39,896 bases of DNA, from IMG/VR virus record IMGVR_UViG_3300035698_013684, positions 1 to 39,896 of that record; one strand, written 5' to 3'. The stretch is from a virus. Position 1 is the stretch's first letter. Each line of letters begins with the position of its first letter. The translations under genes and the position numbers were made by a program. Shown here in pieces: positions 3,608 to 34,628 of the stretch. The notes beneath the pieces were generated by a model that made no database searches, had not been told where the DNA came from, and saw only the letters and a list, made by a program, of their open reading frames with translations.

Positions 3608-5440
3608 TCATATAAAAAATTGATTATTTAATTTACCAACTCCCGGAGAAACTATTTTAGGAGATTCCACTTTTGTTGAATTTGCAATATTTGTGTTAGT
3701 TGTATTTACATTTGTTGAAGTAGTTCCCTCTGTATAATATGTTTTTTGCTTTTCTTCAAAATCTTTTTTTTCTTTTTCTTTTTCAAGTAATTCCCGTTCT
3801 ATTTTATCGGCATTACTTTCTTGTGTTGGAGTATCTAATTTATATTGTTTTATATCAATTAAATAGTCTGGGGTTATAGCGTCCAATTTATCCAAATAAT
3901 AATTAAAAACTTTAACTCCTATTAGTTTTGCGTAAAATAATAGATCTTCAATTACTCCACCAAACCAATCAAAAAATGGTGTAAACATATCACTCAACAT
4001 ATTTTTTGCATTAGTTAAACCAGCTTTAACATTTTCAAATGCGTCTAATAAGTCTTGTTTTGATGCTTCAAAGAACCCTGATATGGATTTACCAATATCT
4101 GAAAAGAATTTTCCCCAATAATCAAATATTTCTGACATACTAAATTCACCAGTTATTGATTCAACCCAATGAATTAATCCACCAATTGCACCACCAATTA
4201 ATCCACCCAAAACAAAACCAATTGGTCCTCCAAAAGGAATACCCATAACGGATCCGATCGCAGCCCATTTAGATATTTTTGAAAACATTCCACCACCAAA
4301 AAGTATTCCGGATAATCCACCCTTAATTCCTTTTTCACCAGTTTCTTTATTATGAAAAAATCCAATAATACCATCTTTAACCATATTCCAAACACCAGCA
4401 AGAGCTAGTCCGGCCATTGCAACAACACTAAACCCAACGGCTAAACTTCCAGAACCCAATGTAGTTACAGCGGTTAGAAGATAAGTACCTATAGAACTAA
4501 GACCTGCCATAATACTTGTACCGAGGTTGGCCAAAATTGGCATAAGATAAGCGCTTATTCCACTAAGACCAGTCATGATTGCTCCGCCCATCCAACTAAA
4601 CAGTGCTATAAGTGGTGCATAAATAAATCTTTCCATTCCAACATCCAACAAACTTCTTTCTTTAGTTCCAGAAAATATATTTCTTTTCTCTTTTGGTTTT
4701 TCATCTTTTGCACCATCGGTTGTTACAGCGGGCAACGTTTTTTTCTTTAAATCTTCGTCCTGAAATACAGATTTGAAATTATTATTTAATAAATCCAAAC
4801 TTTTTACAATCATCCGAAAATAAGATTTCTGTAATTTCCTCGAATTTCTTTTATCTTCAGTTTTAACTACCGGGAAAAATTCTTCTTTTGAAGATTTGTC
4901 TAAAAACAATACTTTAAAATTATTATTTAATAAATCCAAACCATTTACAATTATTTGCAAAAAAGAACTATTTTTTTCATCTTTCTCCGAAAATTCTTCT
5001 TTTAAAGATTTGTCTAAAAACAATACTTTAAAATTATCATTTAATGAGTCTAAACCATTTACAATTATTTGCAAAAAAGAACTATTTTTTTCATCTTTCT
5101 CCGAAATAATTATGGCATCAGAAATATCACTTTTATCGTCAAACATTGAAGATATAGTTGTGAATGATTTAACATTTTCATAAATACTATCTATTAGTTT
5201 ATCTGTCATATTTGTTATTTCATCTAATATTAAATTATTTGTAAAATTTAATCCGTTCATTGAATTAACACAAACTACTGCATAATTTTTAAAACCGGAG
5301 TCAAATGAATTCATCAACATATCAAATTTATCATTTAATATTTTAGGAACATTCTTATCATTATCAGGTACAATTAATTCAGTACTAACTTTATTTTCTG
5401 GGATGTTATTCTCACCACCAGCAATATCCAATAAATCCAT
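3608..5440 (-). CDS. Large virion protein with internal repeats and glycine-rich hydrophobic domain, 610 aa
   Basis: Residues 113-150 and 151-188 are near-identical 38-residue repeats (each opening with EKDEKNSSFLQIIVNGLD after one or two residues), and a diverged third copy lies at about 203-236. Residues about 273-430 are Gly/Ala-rich and strongly hydrophobic, with several possible membrane-spanning helices (for example GGPIGFVLGGLIGGAIGGLI). A Lys/Glu-rich and Thr/Asn-rich tail follows. This build resembles tape-measure or membrane-active tail proteins of phages, but no specific T4 homologue was recognised. AGGAG precedes the start at 5440. Position within the tail and neck gene cluster supports a virion role. 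Confidence 0.6.
   Translation of the reverse strand: MDLLDIAGGENNIPENKVSTELIVPDNDKNVPKILNDKFDMLMNSFDSGFKNYAVVCVNSMNGLNFTNNLILDEITNMTDKLIDSIYENVKSFTTISSMFDDKSDISDAIIISEKDEKNSSFLQIIVNGLDSLNDNFKVLFLDKSLKEEFSEKDEKNSSFLQIIVNGLDLLNNNFKVLFLDKSSKEEFFPVVKTEDKRNSRKLQKSYFRMIVKSLDLLNNNFKSVFQDEDLKKKTLPAVTTDGAKDEKPKEKRNIFSGTKERSLLDVGMERFIYAPLIALFSWMGGAIMTGLSGISAYLMPILANLGTSIMAGLSSIGTYLLTAVTTLGSGSLAVGFSVVAMAGLALAGVWNMVKDGIIGFFHNKETGEKGIKGGLSGILFGGGMFSKISKWAAIGSVMGIPFGGPIGFVLGGLIGGAIGGLIHWVESITGEFSMSEIFDYWGKFFSDIGKSISGFFEASKQDLLDAFENVKAGLTNAKNMLSDMFTPFFDWFGGVIEDLLFYAKLIGVKVFNYYLDKLDAITPDYLIDIKQYKLDTPTQESNADKIERELLEKEKEKKDFEEKQKTYYTEGTTSTNVNTTNTNIANSTKVESPKIVSPGVGKLNNQFFI
4877..5104 (-). repeat. Two near-identical 114 bp tandem copies inside the gene at 3608-5440
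   Basis: The period is 114 bp, exactly 38 codons. For example, the same TAAAAACAAT block occurs at 4901 and 5015. Only a few bases differ, so the duplication is recent compared with the diverged third copy at about 4730-4834. Confidence 0.8.
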
Positions 5441-19336: not shown

Positions 19337-21310
19337 TTATTTTGTTTCACTAATATTGATATATTCTCTAGCGCCAAATTCTTGTTGTTTCCCTTCATGA
19401 TAATTATTTATAGATTTATAATATCCAATAACTCTGGCAAATATTTCACAAGGTATTTTTTTTGTACCGTCCGCCATATCAATTCCAAAAGTATTTAAAT
19501 CATTTTCAGAATGTTCATTACAACAATAATCCATTTTAGCTCCGTGGTAACCACAAACTGGACAAACAGAAAAAACGGTTGTGAATGAAAAATATGGTAT
19601 AGTGGTCTTATGTAATATTTTCCTTAATAAATTTGTTATTACTTCATCGGACACACAAGTTAAATCATCACCTATATAGAAATGGACCATTGTACCGCCG
19701 GAATGATATTTTTGAAGTCGATCTTGATTTTCCGCTAATTTAAAGAAATCTCCTTGATCATCAACAGATGGATGACAAGAATTTGTTATCATTGGAGTAT
19801 CTTCAGTTCCAGCTAAAATAATACCGGGATAATTCTGTTTCATAGCCTTTGCCATTCTAAACGACGCACCTTCAGCCGGAGTTGCTTCTAAATTAAAAAG
19901 AAGTCCATGCTGATGTTGTAAAGCATTTGTCATTTTTAACATAAAGTCTAAAACTAGTTCTGCTTTCATTAAACCTTCTTCAGAACTAACTCCATCTTTA
20001 ATACCCATTATCTGTAAAGTTTCATTTAATCCAACATAACCAATAGTATTAAAATAAGAACCAAATTTTCCTTTTAAGTAATGTTTTGTATAAGGCATTA
20101 AATTTAAATCATACATTTCTAAAACGGTTTTTCTTTTCTCCATTAAACCATGTGCTGATATATCCATTGTTTCCATTAATATATTATAAAATTTTTCCCA
20201 GTCACCTTCTGATTCATAGGCTATAGCGGGAAGACCCATTGAAACCACACCCAAACTTCCGGTTGATTCTCCGTTACCAAATAATCCACCTGAATGAGTT
20301 CTAAGTTCATCAAGATCCATCATTAACCTACAACACATTGACCGGGTATCTCCAGTTGACATTTTTTTCTTTTTTGACATTATACCATTTATTTGATTTG
20401 AAATATATGGTCCGCCAAATTTCTTAATATTTTTATATATGACACTCTTAACGTCGGAGCTAATTCCAAAAAATTCTTCAGTTGCATTAATGGTCACAAC
20501 CGGGAAAGTGAAAATTCTACCGCTTGCATCGCCTTTATTTAATTCTTCAAAAAATATTACATTAAATAAATTTACCCATTTAGTAAATTCTTCATATTTC
20601 ATTTGTTCACATTCATCATTTAATAAAGGTTTATTTGCGATCATCACTGGTTTTTTAGCCATATCGTCCGGCATTGTTAAAGCCAAAGAGAAGTTTGAGA
20701 ATGGAGGTTGATTTCCGTATCTTGACGGATAATTTAAATTAAATAAAAGAGACTGAATTGATTGTCTAACTTCTCTTTTAATTTGTTCTATTGCGATTCT
20801 TTCAAGCACCTTAGGAAATGTGTTCGCTCCGTTTTTTTCCATTAAGTCATTTAAAATTATTTTAAAGTCATTATAAATATAAGGAGCTAAATATACATCA
20901 ACATCAGAAAAGGCTTGTGCTCCGGCCCATTCATTCGACAAAATCATAATAAAATTTGTCATCTGGTCTATAGCAGTTCTGAAATGTTTAGCGGGATCTG
21001 CTTTGATGTTATTTTTGATTGAAGGAATTCCTTCAGATAAAAGTGAACCAAGTCCCCAGCCAGAACAATATCCAACTATACCATGACCTAAATCATGAAT
21101 ATGAACTTTTCCTTTATTATGAAATTCAACGAGCTGTTTTGATTTTTCATCGTTATATACTTTATTAAAACTATAGTTGGCAATTATTTTACCAGAAATA
21201 TTATTTAAAAAGCTAGTGAAACAAAAAGATTGGTTGGCATTCTCTTTTTCTCTCCAATCATTTTTGCTTAAATAATTATCCATGTGATTAACCATATTAC
21301 TTAAATCCAT
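19337..21310 (-). CDS. nrdD: Anaerobic (class III) ribonucleoside-triphosphate reductase NrdD
   Basis: A glycyl-radical enzyme that reduces ribonucleotides to deoxyribonucleotides without oxygen. Visible features: HNKGKVHIHDLGHGIVGYCS near residues 64-83, TRSMCCRLMMD with Cys 326/327, a C-terminal zinc site with CPVCG (Cys 583, 586) and YCC (596/597), and the glycyl radical site RVIGY (Gly 629). The length, 657 aa, is close to T4 NrdD (605 aa). The start is the ATG at 21310, since GGAGG lies before it and the ATG at 21322 overlaps that site. The activase NrdG needed to install the radical is not in this window. A late-type element lies at 21366-21373. Confidence 0.95.
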   Translation of the reverse strand: MDLSNMVNHMDNYLSKNDWREKENANQSFCFTSFLNNISGKIIANYSFNKVYNDEKSKQLVEFHNKGKVHIHDLGHGIVGYCSGWGLGSLLSEGIPSIKNNIKADPAKHFRTAIDQMTNFIMILSNEWAGAQAFSDVDVYLAPYIYNDFKIILNDLMEKNGANTFPKVLERIAIEQIKREVRQSIQSLLFNLNYPSRYGNQPPFSNFSLALTMPDDMAKKPVMIANKPLLNDECEQMKYEEFTKWVNLFNVIFFEELNKGDASGRIFTFPVVTINATEEFFGISSDVKSVIYKNIKKFGGPYISNQINGIMSKKKKMSTGDTRSMCCRLMMDLDELRTHSGGLFGNGESTGSLGVVSMGLPAIAYESEGDWEKFYNILMETMDISAHGLMEKRKTVLEMYDLNLMPYTKHYLKGKFGSYFNTIGYVGLNETLQIMGIKDGVSSEEGLMKAELVLDFMLKMTNALQHQHGLLFNLEATPAEGASFRMAKAMKQNYPGIILAGTEDTPMITNSCHPSVDDQGDFFKLAENQDRLQKYHSGGTMVHFYIGDDLTCVSDEVITNLLRKILHKTTIPYFSFTTVFSVCPVCGYHGAKMDYCCNEHSENDLNTFGIDMADGTKKIPCEIFARVIGYYKSINNYHEGKQQEFGAREYINISETK

Positions 21311-21365
21311 TAAAACCTCCATGCAATTGCTAAATTTTTTCTAGTTAACTTTCTGTGTGTAAAGT

Positions 21366-24636: not shown

Positions 24637-25440
24637 ATGAAAAAAAATCAAAAAGATTTGTTCGGAGAAAATTTTGTACAAGCTATAAAAACTTCATTAA
24701 GTGAAGGTAAAAAATTTAAACTTGATGAAAAATCAAAACGTGGAATAAAAAGTATGTGTAAAGAAGCATTAGAAGATGAACTTGAAGATTATATTGAAAC
24801 TGATGAATCTGAAGAAGGTTTTGACGATGATTTTGAAATGTCTGACGATATGGGTGAAGATTTTAAAGATGATATAATTGACGCTGTTGCTGATGATTAT
24901 GTTATTGACGTAAGTTCTTTAGACGATTCAGATGAAATAGTAATTACAATTTCTGAAGACGGAAATGTTCAAATTGATAAAATTGAAACTGCAACAGGTG
25001 AAGAATTCTCAGGTGAAGAACTTGAATCAGCTGGTGTTATCGAAAGAAAAGTTAGAAAAGAAGGAACTAATACAAAAGGTACAGCAAGAACAAGATTAAA
25101 TGATGGTTCAGGAAAAGTTAAATATTGGACTGATGAAGAAGGCAAAAGAAAATATTATAAAGACGTTCCCGGTGGAGACAAAGGCCAAGTATCTAAATTG
25201 AAAAATGAAGATATTCAAATTAAAGGTGCCGAATTTACAATGGACCCTGAATCTGAAGCAATTATTGATGATAGTGGAAATGTTGAATTTGTTGATAATT
25301 ATTCCGAAGATGATATGTTATCTGGTGATGATTTATCAGTTGAAGCTGATGACGCTCCTTCAAATGAAAACATGGGTGAAGATGAAAATTTTGGAAACCA
25401 AGTTTCAAATGAAGAAGAAGATGACACAATTTTAATATAA
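24637..25440 (+). CDS. Acidic prohead core protein (position of T4 gp67/gp68)
   Basis: 267 aa and very acidic. The N-terminus is basic and helical (KTSLSEGKKFKLDEKSKRGI), followed by an acidic block with EDELEDYIETDESEEGFDDD, a folded-looking region with KVKYWTDEEGKRKYYKDVPG, and another acidic tail. In T4 the small core proteins gp67 and gp68 precede gp21 and gp22; this gene holds that place but is larger, and sequence similarity is not evident to me. It is probably part of the scaffold core cut by gp21. AAGGAG precedes the ATG. Confidence 0.65.
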   Translation: MKKNQKDLFGENFVQAIKTSLSEGKKFKLDEKSKRGIKSMCKEALEDELEDYIETDESEEGFDDDFEMSDDMGEDFKDDIIDAVADDYVIDVSSLDDSDEIVITISEDGNVQIDKIETATGEEFSGEELESAGVIERKVRKEGTNTKGTARTRLNDGSGKVKYWTDEEGKRKYYKDVPGGDKGQVSKLKNEDIQIKGAEFTMDPESEAIIDDSGNVEFVDNYSEDDMLSGDDLSVEADDAPSNENMGEDENFGNQVSNEEEDDTILI

Positions 25441-31397: not shown

Positions 31398-31414
31398 CAC
31401 GGAGGAAACATTAA

Positions 31415-32284
31415 ATGCAAGACTTATTACAATTTTCAGAAGGGTTAAACTTTCAGAAAGAATTAATTTTACCAGTTTCAAAATATAAAATAACAGTAAG
31501 ACCTTTAAAAGTTAAAGATGCTATGGGGCTTTCTGTAAACAATCTAAAAGATTTGGTACAAAACAAATATAAAAATAGAAAAGAATTTGAAAATATGTAT
31601 TCCGAATTCAGACAAGTGTTGGATTCATCTATAGAAATGGTTTCTGATTTATCAAAAGATAAGCTAGAAAGTTTATGTTTCTTAGATTATATTTATTTAT
31701 TTTCATTTATCAGAAACCAATCAGAAGGTGAAACTAGTTTAATAATTTCAACTTTATGTAAAGAAACGGGGTGTGATCACAAAGTTAATCTTGAATTAAA
31801 AATAGATGAATTAAATATTGATAACTTAGATTTTAATAATAAACTGAAATATGAAGCTAATAATATAGAATTTGAATTTTCAACAAAAAAAATTGGTTTT
31901 CATGAATTTATGCAATTAACTTTATTATTGGCTGATATTGAAAAATTAAAAGACATGAATTTGAAAACTCAGAATGAATTAATGGATATGTTATATAATA
32001 TATTATTTAATATAGTAAATACATTGAAGGTTACAAAAGGTACTGAAGTTCATTCATATAAAATGACTAAATCAAATTCAGAACAATTAACACCTTCGGA
32101 AGTGAACCTTACAAAATTTAAAACATTTATGATGGATATATTACCAAGATTTATAACTACAAAATTATTCAAGGAGCTTTTAGTGAGCCAACCACAAATA
32201 AATGGTGAAATTTCCGAAAAATGTGAAGCTGGTCATATAAATAAAGTTGTGGTGAATAGTTTCAGTTTTTTTATGCTAATTTAA
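31415..32284 (+). CDS. gp26-like baseplate hub / tail assembly protein, zero-frame product
   Basis: The pattern matches the T4 baseplate-protein family (gp26): ELILPVSKYKITVRPLKVKD near residues 17-36, then a helical part, LCFLDYIYLFSFIRNQSEGE around 90-109, then a Cys-containing strand (TLCKETGCDHKVNLELKIDE). At 289 aa it is longer than gp26 (208 aa). Its 3' end is a run of seven T (32266-32272) just before the TAA at 32282, and a coding-like extension continues in the -1 frame to 32448. That arrangement resembles the two-product tail assembly chaperone genes of many tailed phages. GGAGG precedes the start. Confidence 0.75.
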   Translation: MQDLLQFSEGLNFQKELILPVSKYKITVRPLKVKDAMGLSVNNLKDLVQNKYKNRKEFENMYSEFRQVLDSSIEMVSDLSKDKLESLCFLDYIYLFSFIRNQSEGETSLIISTLCKETGCDHKVNLELKIDELNIDNLDFNNKLKYEANNIEFEFSTKKIGFHEFMQLTLLLADIEKLKDMNLKTQNELMDMLYNILFNIVNTLKVTKGTEVHSYKMTKSNSEQLTPSEVNLTKFKTFMMDILPRFITTKLFKELLVSQPQINGEISEKCEAGHINKVVVNSFSFFMLI

Positions 32285-32448
32285 ACCGGTTTGAAGATGA
32301 TACTATTTATAGAAGAATTTTCATGTTAAATAAAGCTGAGTTTAGTTTAGAATCATTGGAAAAAATGTGGTATTATGAATTAGATATTTATGAAGTAATG
32401 GAATTAGATTACCGGGATAAAGTAAATAAAAGTCGAAATAATAAATAA
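32272..32448 (+). CDS. -1 frame extension of the gp26-like protein (58 codons)
   Basis: If ribosomes slip back one base on the T-run at 32266-32272 (zero-frame codons TTT TTT preceded by T), translation continues as YANLNRFEDDTIYRRIFMLN, then KAEFSLESLEKMWYYELDIY and a basic end, to TAA at 32448. The fused protein would be 344 aa. The segment has protein-like composition before its first ATG (codon 18), and that ATG has no clear ribosome site, which argues for frameshifting rather than a separate gene. A sequence error in the T-run is the main alternative. Confidence 0.65.
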   Translation, partial: YANLNRFEDDTIYRRIFMLNKAEFSLESLEKMWYYELDIYEVMELDYRDKVNKSRNNK

Positions 32449-32461
32449 AAGGATATGACGA

Positions 32462-32857
32462 ATGGAAAATCAAAAATATAATATTGACAGAATTTTTAAT
32501 AACTTAGAGAAATTGGATAAAGAAAAAACAAATAAATCTGAATGTATTTTAGTTCAAGAAAAAATAAATTTATTATTTAAAGACGAAAAAGAAGAAATTA
32601 TAAGAAATTCTGAAGCTATTGGTTTTATTTCAAAAGAATTATCCGATGAAAAATTAAATCTTGGTATACTGAAAGAAAAATTGGATAATGTTTTGACAGA
32701 CGATAAACAAACTAAACTTTTTAAAAAAGAAACATACAGAAGATTCGGTTTAATTATTTTAGGTAGTATTATAGCTATAATTATTCCAGCTTTTTTAACT
32801 TTGTTAAAAGGTAATTTAATTCAGCTTATAAAGAATTTATTTCAGGGAGTAATTTAA
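32462..32857 (+). CDS. Coiled-coil protein with C-terminal membrane anchor, 131 aa
   Basis: Residues 1-95 are charged and helical (IDRIFNNLEKLDKEKTNKSE and onward), followed by one hydrophobic helix at about 103-122 (GLIILGSIIAIIIPAFLTLL) and a short tail. The layout resembles XhlA-type membrane accessory proteins of phage lysis modules, but the similarity is structural only. AAGGATATGACGA precedes the ATG. It is adjacent to a polytopic membrane protein starting at the base after its stop, so the pair is probably co-expressed. Confidence 0.6.
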   Translation: MENQKYNIDRIFNNLEKLDKEKTNKSECILVQEKINLLFKDEKEEIIRNSEAIGFISKELSDEKLNLGILKEKLDNVLTDDKQTKLFKKETYRRFGLIILGSIIAIIIPAFLTLLKGNLIQLIKNLFQGVI

Positions 32858-33586
32858 ATGGAACTAAACAAAATACCTAAAAAATATAAAATAATGGGGA
32901 TCGGAATTCTTATAACTTTTATAATATCTTTTCTAATATATTCAGCATTTAATTTAAATGATCTTGGTTTTCAACTAAAATGGCTAGAATATTTCTGGGG
33001 TTTAACTCTATATAGTAGTTTACTTTTTGTAGTCTTACATAAGTCTTTATCTAAAACAAAGAAACATATCATTTATTTAATAGTATTTATATCATTACTT
33101 TTATTTATAGCATTTATGCCCGATAATGTAAATAAGACTAATGTACCTATATCTTCAATTATATGTTTTTCTTTATTTTATAATTTGGCTTTTCTAGGTA
33201 TTTTATATGAGATCTCAAAATTAAATCTTAAAACAATATTCTTAATAGTTTCAAATTTAATTATAAGTCTAGGTTTATTGTCTGGTATTTATATAATAAA
33301 CTCTTTATTTGTATTATCCTATTCAACAACTTTAACTTACATAATAGGTTTACTTTTAATTACCTATATTTTATGGAATATGAAGGCTCAAATATTCAAG
33401 ATAAAAAATTTATATATATTATTTATATTATTAGGAAACCTTATAACTATAATGTTTTATTTTATAATGTTGGCCTGTCATTTAAAAGGTTTATTTGTAA
33501 TAAATACTAATATAATAGTATATATTTGTACATTACAACCGTTGTTTTATTGGTTAGGTGTTAATTTTATATTAATGGAGGATTAA
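32858..33586 (+). CDS. Polytopic membrane protein, about 8 helices, 242 aa
   Basis: Hydrophobic segments fall at about residues 12-30, 42-60, 69-87, 98-118, 124-145, 150-168, 184-205 and 213-233. Few charged residues lie between them, mostly Lys, and no catalytic motif is visible. The ATG follows the previous stop directly (TAAATGG) and a plausible GGGAG lies upstream. A large multi-pass membrane protein is unusual within a baseplate cluster. Holin-like, superinfection-exclusion or transporter roles are possible; the sequence does not choose between them. Confidence 0.6.
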   Translation: MELNKIPKKYKIMGIGILITFIISFLIYSAFNLNDLGFQLKWLEYFWGLTLYSSLLFVVLHKSLSKTKKHIIYLIVFISLLLFIAFMPDNVNKTNVPISSIICFSLFYNLAFLGILYEISKLNLKTIFLIVSNLIISLGLLSGIYIINSLFVLSYSTTLTYIIGLLLITYILWNMKAQIFKIKNLYILFILLGNLITIMFYFIMLACHLKGLFVINTNIIVYICTLQPLFYWLGVNFILMED

Positions 33587-33587
33587 A

Positions 33588-34628
33588 ATGTCATTTGGTA
33601 ATAATATAGATACTGATATTTTTAATTCATCTAATTTTTCCGATACATTAGAACATCAATTAGGTATACATTTAACAATACTTATGGTAGAAATTCTGGG
33701 AACATACCCCGGATATTTAATAACGGATTCTATTTATACTGGAACATATATAAATTCAACTGGTGGGGAAGTAAAATCCGCAGGATTTGGTACAACTCCG
33801 GTTGATGTTACTGGTTTAAATATATCTGAAGAAGAGCGAACATGGGAAGCTTATTTAACAAGCCTTTCGGCTCAATATGCTACAATAAATAATTATTTTG
33901 AAAGCTCAACTCCAGCAGATCTAAATAATGATTTAACTTTACTCGATGCAAATGCAAGACCAGTTGGAAGAGCTGGATATTTATCAAGATATGCCGACAC
34001 AAACTTTTTGGCTTTATCTAATTATGCAAGTGAGTCTTATATTTTATATGATGATTCAACTGTTCCATTAATTCCAGCTTCATATTATGATATTAATAAA
34101 TTCGTAGATATTTTTGAATACTACAAACAGGTTATATTTTCATCATTTTATAACCTACTAAGTACAACACTAACAGCAAATACTTTAATGTATCAATGGT
34201 ATTCAACTCCAGCTCCTGCTCATTGGGGTGATCCAGACTCTAATCCAGTAGAAGAAACATTTGACGATACATTTATAACAACAACTTTTGCTGGTATTTT
34301 TTCATATACCGGAACCGAAGAACCCGCATTAATTGCTTTAATGACCGGAACTGGAACTTTTGTTGTTGATAGTATAACTTATGACGAAGGAGTAGAAAAT
34401 TTTGTTTCTCCAATAGGAAATCCAACGTTATCTAATATGTTTACTTTATTTAACATAATTGGTGCATCTGGTGGATCTATAATAAATAGAAATTATAATG
34501 ATAGAGTAACTTATCCGATCGCAGAATACCCGGATATAGAAAATTTTTATATTATTAAAAAATTATATAATGTTGTATTTAGTTTTTACAATCTGGATTA
34601 TCTTTATCCTAGAAAATTAAAATTATAA
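33588..34628 (+). CDS. Hypothetical baseplate-cluster protein, 346 aa
   Basis: A Thr/Ser/Tyr-rich, low-charge protein of the kind found in virion structures. It opens MSFGNNIDTDIFNSSNFSDT and contains TRP-like aromatic segments (ALSNYASESYILYDDSTVPL). It starts after GGAGGAT, directly behind the membrane protein, and is followed by the PAAR gene 13 nt downstream. No T4 homologue was recognised. Likely part of the baseplate or central spike complex, by position. Confidence 0.6.
   Translation: MSFGNNIDTDIFNSSNFSDTLEHQLGIHLTILMVEILGTYPGYLITDSIYTGTYINSTGGEVKSAGFGTTPVDVTGLNISEEERTWEAYLTSLSAQYATINNYFESSTPADLNNDLTLLDANARPVGRAGYLSRYADTNFLALSNYASESYILYDDSTVPLIPASYYDINKFVDIFEYYKQVIFSSFYNLLSTTLTANTLMYQWYSTPAPAHWGDPDSNPVEETFDDTFITTTFAGIFSYTGTEEPALIALMTGTGTFVVDSITYDEGVENFVSPIGNPTLSNMFTLFNIIGASGGSIINRNYNDRVTYPIAEYPDIENFYIIKKLYNVVFSFYNLDYLYPRKLKL

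Follow-up and report, generated by a model that had tools for sequence, protein, structure and literature searches.

A probable −1 frameshift in a gp26-like tail assembly chaperone gene of a diverged T4-like phage

Tail assembly chaperones of long-tailed phages are often made in a short and a frameshifted long form, and here we analyse a candidate case in the IMG/VR virus record IMGVR_UViG_3300035698_013684 (positions 1 to 39,896; the whole 39,896-nucleotide (nt) stretch is called the window below). Positions 31415-32448 very probably constitute one tail assembly chaperone gene that is read in two ways by a −1 frameshift. Most ribosomes would stop at 32282-32284 and release a short, gp26-like product of 289 amino acids (aa), known as TAC-N, and a minority would slip back by one base on the heptamer T_TTT_TTT at 32266-32272, read 58 codons on and release a 344-aa long product, TAC-NC, in which a gp51-like domain would be added to the common part. 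We infer both the ribosomal slip at 32266-32272 and the ratio of the two products from sequence. The elements of the putative gene are as follows.

31401-31405, plus strand: GGAGG, ribosome binding site of the gp26-like open reading frame (ORF), read from the sequence
31415-32284, plus strand: zero-frame ORF of 289 aa, the predicted short product, a gp26-like tail assembly chaperone (TAC-N, lambda G analogue), from our own gp26 profile and hhalign
32251-32255, plus strand: GGTGA, a possible weak internal Shine-Dalgarno (SD)-like element 10 nt 5′ of the heptamer, like background
32266-32272, plus strand: slippery heptamer T_TTT_TTT, read from the sequence, its position matching the T_TTT_TTN of relatives
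32272-32448, plus strand: −1 extension of 58 codons and TAA, the putative gp51-like (lambda T-like) C-terminal domain of the 344-aa long product, from PHROG_634, our own profile and codon usage
32276-32350, plus strand: possible downstream RNA structure, tentative, from an 80-nt fold
32282-32284, plus strand: zero-frame stop TAA, three sense codons 3′ of the heptamer

The junction and its two halves

Around the run of seven Ts (T7) the zero frame reads (AG)T TTT TTT ATG CTA ATT TAA, giving the ORF the C-terminus ...NSFSFFMLI*, and after a slip the next −1 codon would be TAT at 32272, the first of 58 before the TAA at 32446-32448. The initial annotation, made from the letters alone, had described a zero frame that ends soon after T7 and a −1 frame that stays open for 58 codons; these coordinates check, with three sense codons before the zero-frame stop. 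It had also placed the first ATG inside the extension, where we find it at 32323, with no GTG or TTG before it. The heptamer and its extension exceed chance because of three properties taken together: no other in-frame XXXYYYZ close to the end of any window ORF leads into a −1 extension of at least 40 codons; the extension has gene-like codon usage, scoring above all 1404 off-frame 58-codon chunks of window genes and at the 15th percentile among their true-frame chunks; and it is matched by a profile built from the corresponding segment of relatives.

An independent match came from PHROG_634 ('baseplate hub assembly catalyst', T4 gp51), which finds the −1 segment with E=0.004, or E=4e-4 when searched over the whole record, and which led to the homologous junction in relatives. 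From 100 loci of relatives we built our own gp26 and extension profiles and compared them with the 474 six-frame segments of the window. The extension profile returned the −1 segment with E=1.6e-6 (runner-up E=0.6), making it by profile comparison a gp51-like domain, the analogue of lambda T, and the sole credible match among the 474 segments. The gp26 profile returned the zero-frame ORF as its best match with E=5e-4 (runner-up 0.24), and hhalign of this ORF against 36 cyanophage gp26 proteins gave E=3.5e-4, with the motifs RP..VK and YLF..IR..S.GE in common. Direct comparison of the ORF with Pfam and PHROGs gave no recognition, and a PHROG_150 search of the whole record gave zero matches. Similarity on this side is weak but consistent, and it points to a gp26-like protein, the name that the initial annotation had given to the gene. 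Direct relatives of the ORF were sought by blastn, tblastn and peptide patterns with zero results; tblastn with the 59-aa extension returned nothing at E 10, and a major capsid protein pattern found zero relatives of the window.

Structure prediction is consistent with a chaperone identity. An AlphaFold2 model of gp26 from a cyanophage relative (locus L044) reached a pLDDT of 85, and its best VIA-align chains were the HK97 tail assembly chaperone (gp13; Z 7.5) and YqbN (Z 6.5), each over 85-86 residues. The HK97 chaperone is thus the closest fold of the predicted gp26, which is support and not proof, since both scores lie below Z 8; Foldseek against the PDB alone gave no significant match. The model of the window protein itself (pLDDT 66) was too poor to use, and its best Foldseek matches were gp26 proteins. 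Separately, the third structural match to gp26 was PDB 5ir0, ORF19 of a Vibrio cholerae PICI-like element (Z 4.5), and such satellites might carry a chaperone mimic. In lambda, according to a 2016 review, the part that gpG and gpGT share coats the tape measure protein, and the domain present only in gpGT recruits the tail tube subunit (PMC5009743). By analogy with gpG and gpGT, the two products of the window gene would divide their functions in the same manner.

Conservation of the junction and its signals in relatives

A profile search of IMG/VR gave at least about 600 loci, of which 80 were kept, and we picked 79 complete loci by protein motif, ignoring the heptamer in the choice. All 79 carry T_TTT_TTC, one sense codon and a zero-frame stop; their gp51 domain is encoded in the −1 frame. 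The same holds for the frame of gp51 in 14 of 14 named phages outside the T4 type, which have T_TTT_TTC, TTT or TTG at the junction: P-SSM2, Vibrio V09 and 6E35, Sinorhizobium phiN3 and phiM9, Aeromonas Ahp1, Methylophilales Melnitz-2, five Synechococcus phages, Prochlorococcus phage Syn33 and Pelagibacter HTVC008M. Across both sets, zero to two codons separate the heptamer from the zero-frame stop. The window's own version, T_TTT_TTT, recurs in phiN3, Melnitz-2, HTVC008M and two further loci (L039 and L040). In P-SSM2, T_TTT_TTC falls at the end of gp26 (QSFFV*), and gp51 is annotated in the −1 frame, which is open through the heptamer; IMG/VR relatives reached through the window's gp6 share this layout. 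Several IMG/VR relatives picked by gp6 or gp25 gave no gp51 match, and those records are fragments. The T-run and −1 frame, whose comparison across relatives the initial annotation had proposed as a check, are thereby found conserved in distant relatives, and its proposal of a −1 frameshift analogous to that of tail assembly chaperones gains from the shared heptamer, from the T-like domain in the −1 frame and from the predicted gp26 fold nearest to the HK97 chaperone.

Constraint at the nucleotide level reaches beyond the heptamer. The codon immediately 5′ of it ends in T in 79 of 79 loci though the residue differs (S, A, N, D or G), and the first Phe codon at the relatives' heptamer is TTT without exception. 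An SD-like element (GGAGG, GAGGG or GAAGG) stands at a fixed 9-10 nt 5′ of the heptamer in 94 of 99 distinct loci, and the Glu codon at this element is GAG in 76 of 89, against 31% elsewhere. Downstream, 45 cyanophage loci of the P-SSM2 clade have an 11-bp stem that starts 5 nt 3′ of the heptamer and shows compensatory changes: 93.7% of cells are paired, against at most 47% when the stem is slid, and stem columns 21/35 covary, the Ala wobble base changing together with the second base of a Glu/Ala/Val codon. The frameshift signal of dnaX likewise consists of an SD, a heptamer and a stem. Hairpins predicted within 45 nt 3′ of the heptamer differ by cyanophage clade (L090-L123), an example being GGTCCATATGGACC in L104-L106.

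These signals bear on whether the long product could arise from slippage of the polymerase on the T run, with no slip of the ribosome. The T7 of the window and the T8 of locus L038 are homopolymers, but among relatives the run mostly has just six Ts before a C (91 of 100 loci), too short for efficient transcriptional slippage, and the SD and stem-loop are stimulators of ribosomal slippage. We therefore regard a transcriptional origin as highly improbable. 

The relatives also permit a reading in which the downstream segment is a second, overlapping gene translated apart by coupled initiation, which is how GenBank annotates gp51: separate gp26 and gp51 genes are entered in relatives, and in many cyanophages an ATG follows the heptamer within a few codons. 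The initial annotation had named a separate downstream gene with its own start in relatives as evidence against a frameshift; the segment is indeed annotated apart, but its first start ranges from codon 3 to codon 45. Moreover, the first −1 start in the window is at 32323, yet the PHROG_634 match begins earlier, at 32302; the SD spacing fits the heptamer and not an ATG; and the heptamer is invariant despite available synonymous changes. Coupled initiation of a separate gene is, in our judgement, extremely unlikely. None of the 13 annotated records that we opened at the junction annotates a joined product.

Gene pairs in T4 and Campylobacter phages, and the strength of the case

In T4, gp26 and gp51 each match PF12322 and PHROG_150 and match each other with E=2e-6. 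T4 gp26 aligns to the short product (E=3e-19) and stops two residues past the conserved FF, and T4 gp51 continues into the T domain (E=2e-9). T4 accordingly encodes its short (G) and long (G+T) products in the paralogous genes 26 and 51 and is not known to use a frameshift for them, in agreement with the initial annotation, which knew of no such frameshift in T4. The same divergent gene pair occurs in Proteus, Aeromonas ZHF and Thanatos phages. In the Campylobacter phages Los1 and CJLB-10, two gp26-family genes lie in tandem, one of 235 aa without the T domain and one of 224 aa with it, at the following location.

L149, 407-1770 (and the corresponding stretch in L150): tandem gp26-family genes of Campylobacter phages

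Since T4 and the Campylobacter phages carry gene pairs and a frameshift is predicted elsewhere, both products are, as judged by homology, encoded in every lineage examined.

In-frame G+T fusions of this kind, known from T4-type and Campylobacter phages, give substance to another explanation of the window: the true T run may be off by one through a homopolymer sequencing or assembly error, and the gene would then be an in-frame fusion like T4 gene 51. The record is a metagenomic fragment and T7 is a typical miscall site. Yet more than 90 relatives, finished isolate genomes among them, have their frameshift site at exactly this junction, and T4-type fusions are accompanied by a second, short gene, none of which is seen in this record. 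We consider such an error very unlikely, and a frameshifted chaperone gene remains by far our favoured reading of 31415-32448.

Several points nonetheless weigh against this reading. Both the G and the T half of the window have diverged strongly (G profile E=5e-4), and searches yielded no relative at the nucleotide level with which to test selection in the window's own lineage. The T7 is open to a one-base miscall, and as the record is a 39.9-kb fragment, a separate gp51-type paralogue may sit elsewhere in the genome. The 79 loci are related to one another and cannot each be counted as a separate event. The stimulators in the window itself are weak, its signal being poorer than that of its relatives: the internal GGTGA is at background level, its duplex of −2.8 kcal/mol being equalled by 23% of positions; the downstream 80-nt fold is modest (−15.1 kcal/mol, z −2.5, 2 of 200 shuffles); and the window, like several other clades, lacks the 11-bp stem seen in the P-SSM2 clade.

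Known systems, gene neighbourhood and implications

As predicted for the window, lambda gpG/gpGT comprises a short and a −1-extended product of one gene, with the slip near its 3′ end. The slippery site here is T_TTT_TTN, and we make no claim that the proteins resemble lambda G or T in sequence. Further counterparts are gp26/gp51 of T4-like cyanophages and of KVP40-type, Pelagibacter and Sinorhizobium phages, which share with the window homology on both sides, the slip position, the frame and a close zero-frame stop. The window differs from them in being very diverged, in a stop that lies three codons on and not 0-2, and in the lack of a strong SD and a clear stem. T4 genes 26/51 and the Campylobacter tandem genes likewise encode both the short (G) and the long (G+T) protein, but do so from two paralogous genes with no frameshift.

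Tail assembly chaperones of T4-like phages were reportedly identified by Vladimirov, Gautam and Davidson in 2022, under a title that is said to favour a mechanism other than frameshifting. PMC12846349 attributes to the same study the finding of poly-T slippery sites within TAC-N genes of T4-like phages. The suggestion of the initial annotation that a T4-type phage may use the frameshift device is thus supported, but for T4-like phages it has a precedent (Vladimirov et al. 2022, cited in PMC12846349), and because that work precedes ours we make no claim to novelty for the pattern across the family. The conserved G-T frameshift of long-tailed phages goes back to Xu, Hendrix and Duda 2004, as cited in PMC5009743, and that 2016 review excepts T4 from it; T4-like phages are not dealt with in the searched passages of the PRFect and GeneTack papers. 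The window would add a diverged case to a known device.

In P-SSM2 and phiN3 the tail tube gene lies directly 5′ of gp26, and in HTVC008M the tape measure gene lies 3′ of it, an order that resembles V-G-GT-H of lambda. The proximity to the tape measure gene noted in the initial annotation therefore holds in relatives (HTVC008M) but not in the window, where the chaperone gene is not beside a recognisable tape measure gene. Its neighbours are a dUTPase-like ORF (judged by eye) and small membrane ORFs, and it does not stand between tail tube and tape measure genes. This is not a defining exclusion, because T4 genes 26 and 51 also lack that order.

Elsewhere in the window, a 610-aa ORF at 3608-5440 (minus strand) weakly matches the tape measure families PHROG_58 and PHROG_305 (E ~7e-4) and may be the tape measure gene; it lies on the opposite strand, a long way from the chaperone gene. 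The ORF at 19337-21322 (minus strand) matches the large subunit of anaerobic ribonucleotide reductase (NrdD-like; PHROG_487, E=1e-68), which suggests a host living without oxygen. Three ORFs of the structural region (24637-25440, 32462-33586 and 33588-34628) have no significant family match, and that at 32462-33586 appears by eye to be membrane-spanning.

We hypothesize, with belief and doubt about evenly balanced, that a frameshift signal of SD, T_TTT_TTN and stem was ancestral across T4-like phages, that the T4-type and Campylobacter phages each exchanged it for paralogous gene pairs, and that the window represents a deep branch that kept it. As no joined product is entered in the 13 annotated records, their annotation lacks the long chaperone. 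T4 looks exceptional in using two genes where most of the relatives examined use one frameshifted gene, and the frameshift would have been kept even in a lineage as diverged as that of the window.
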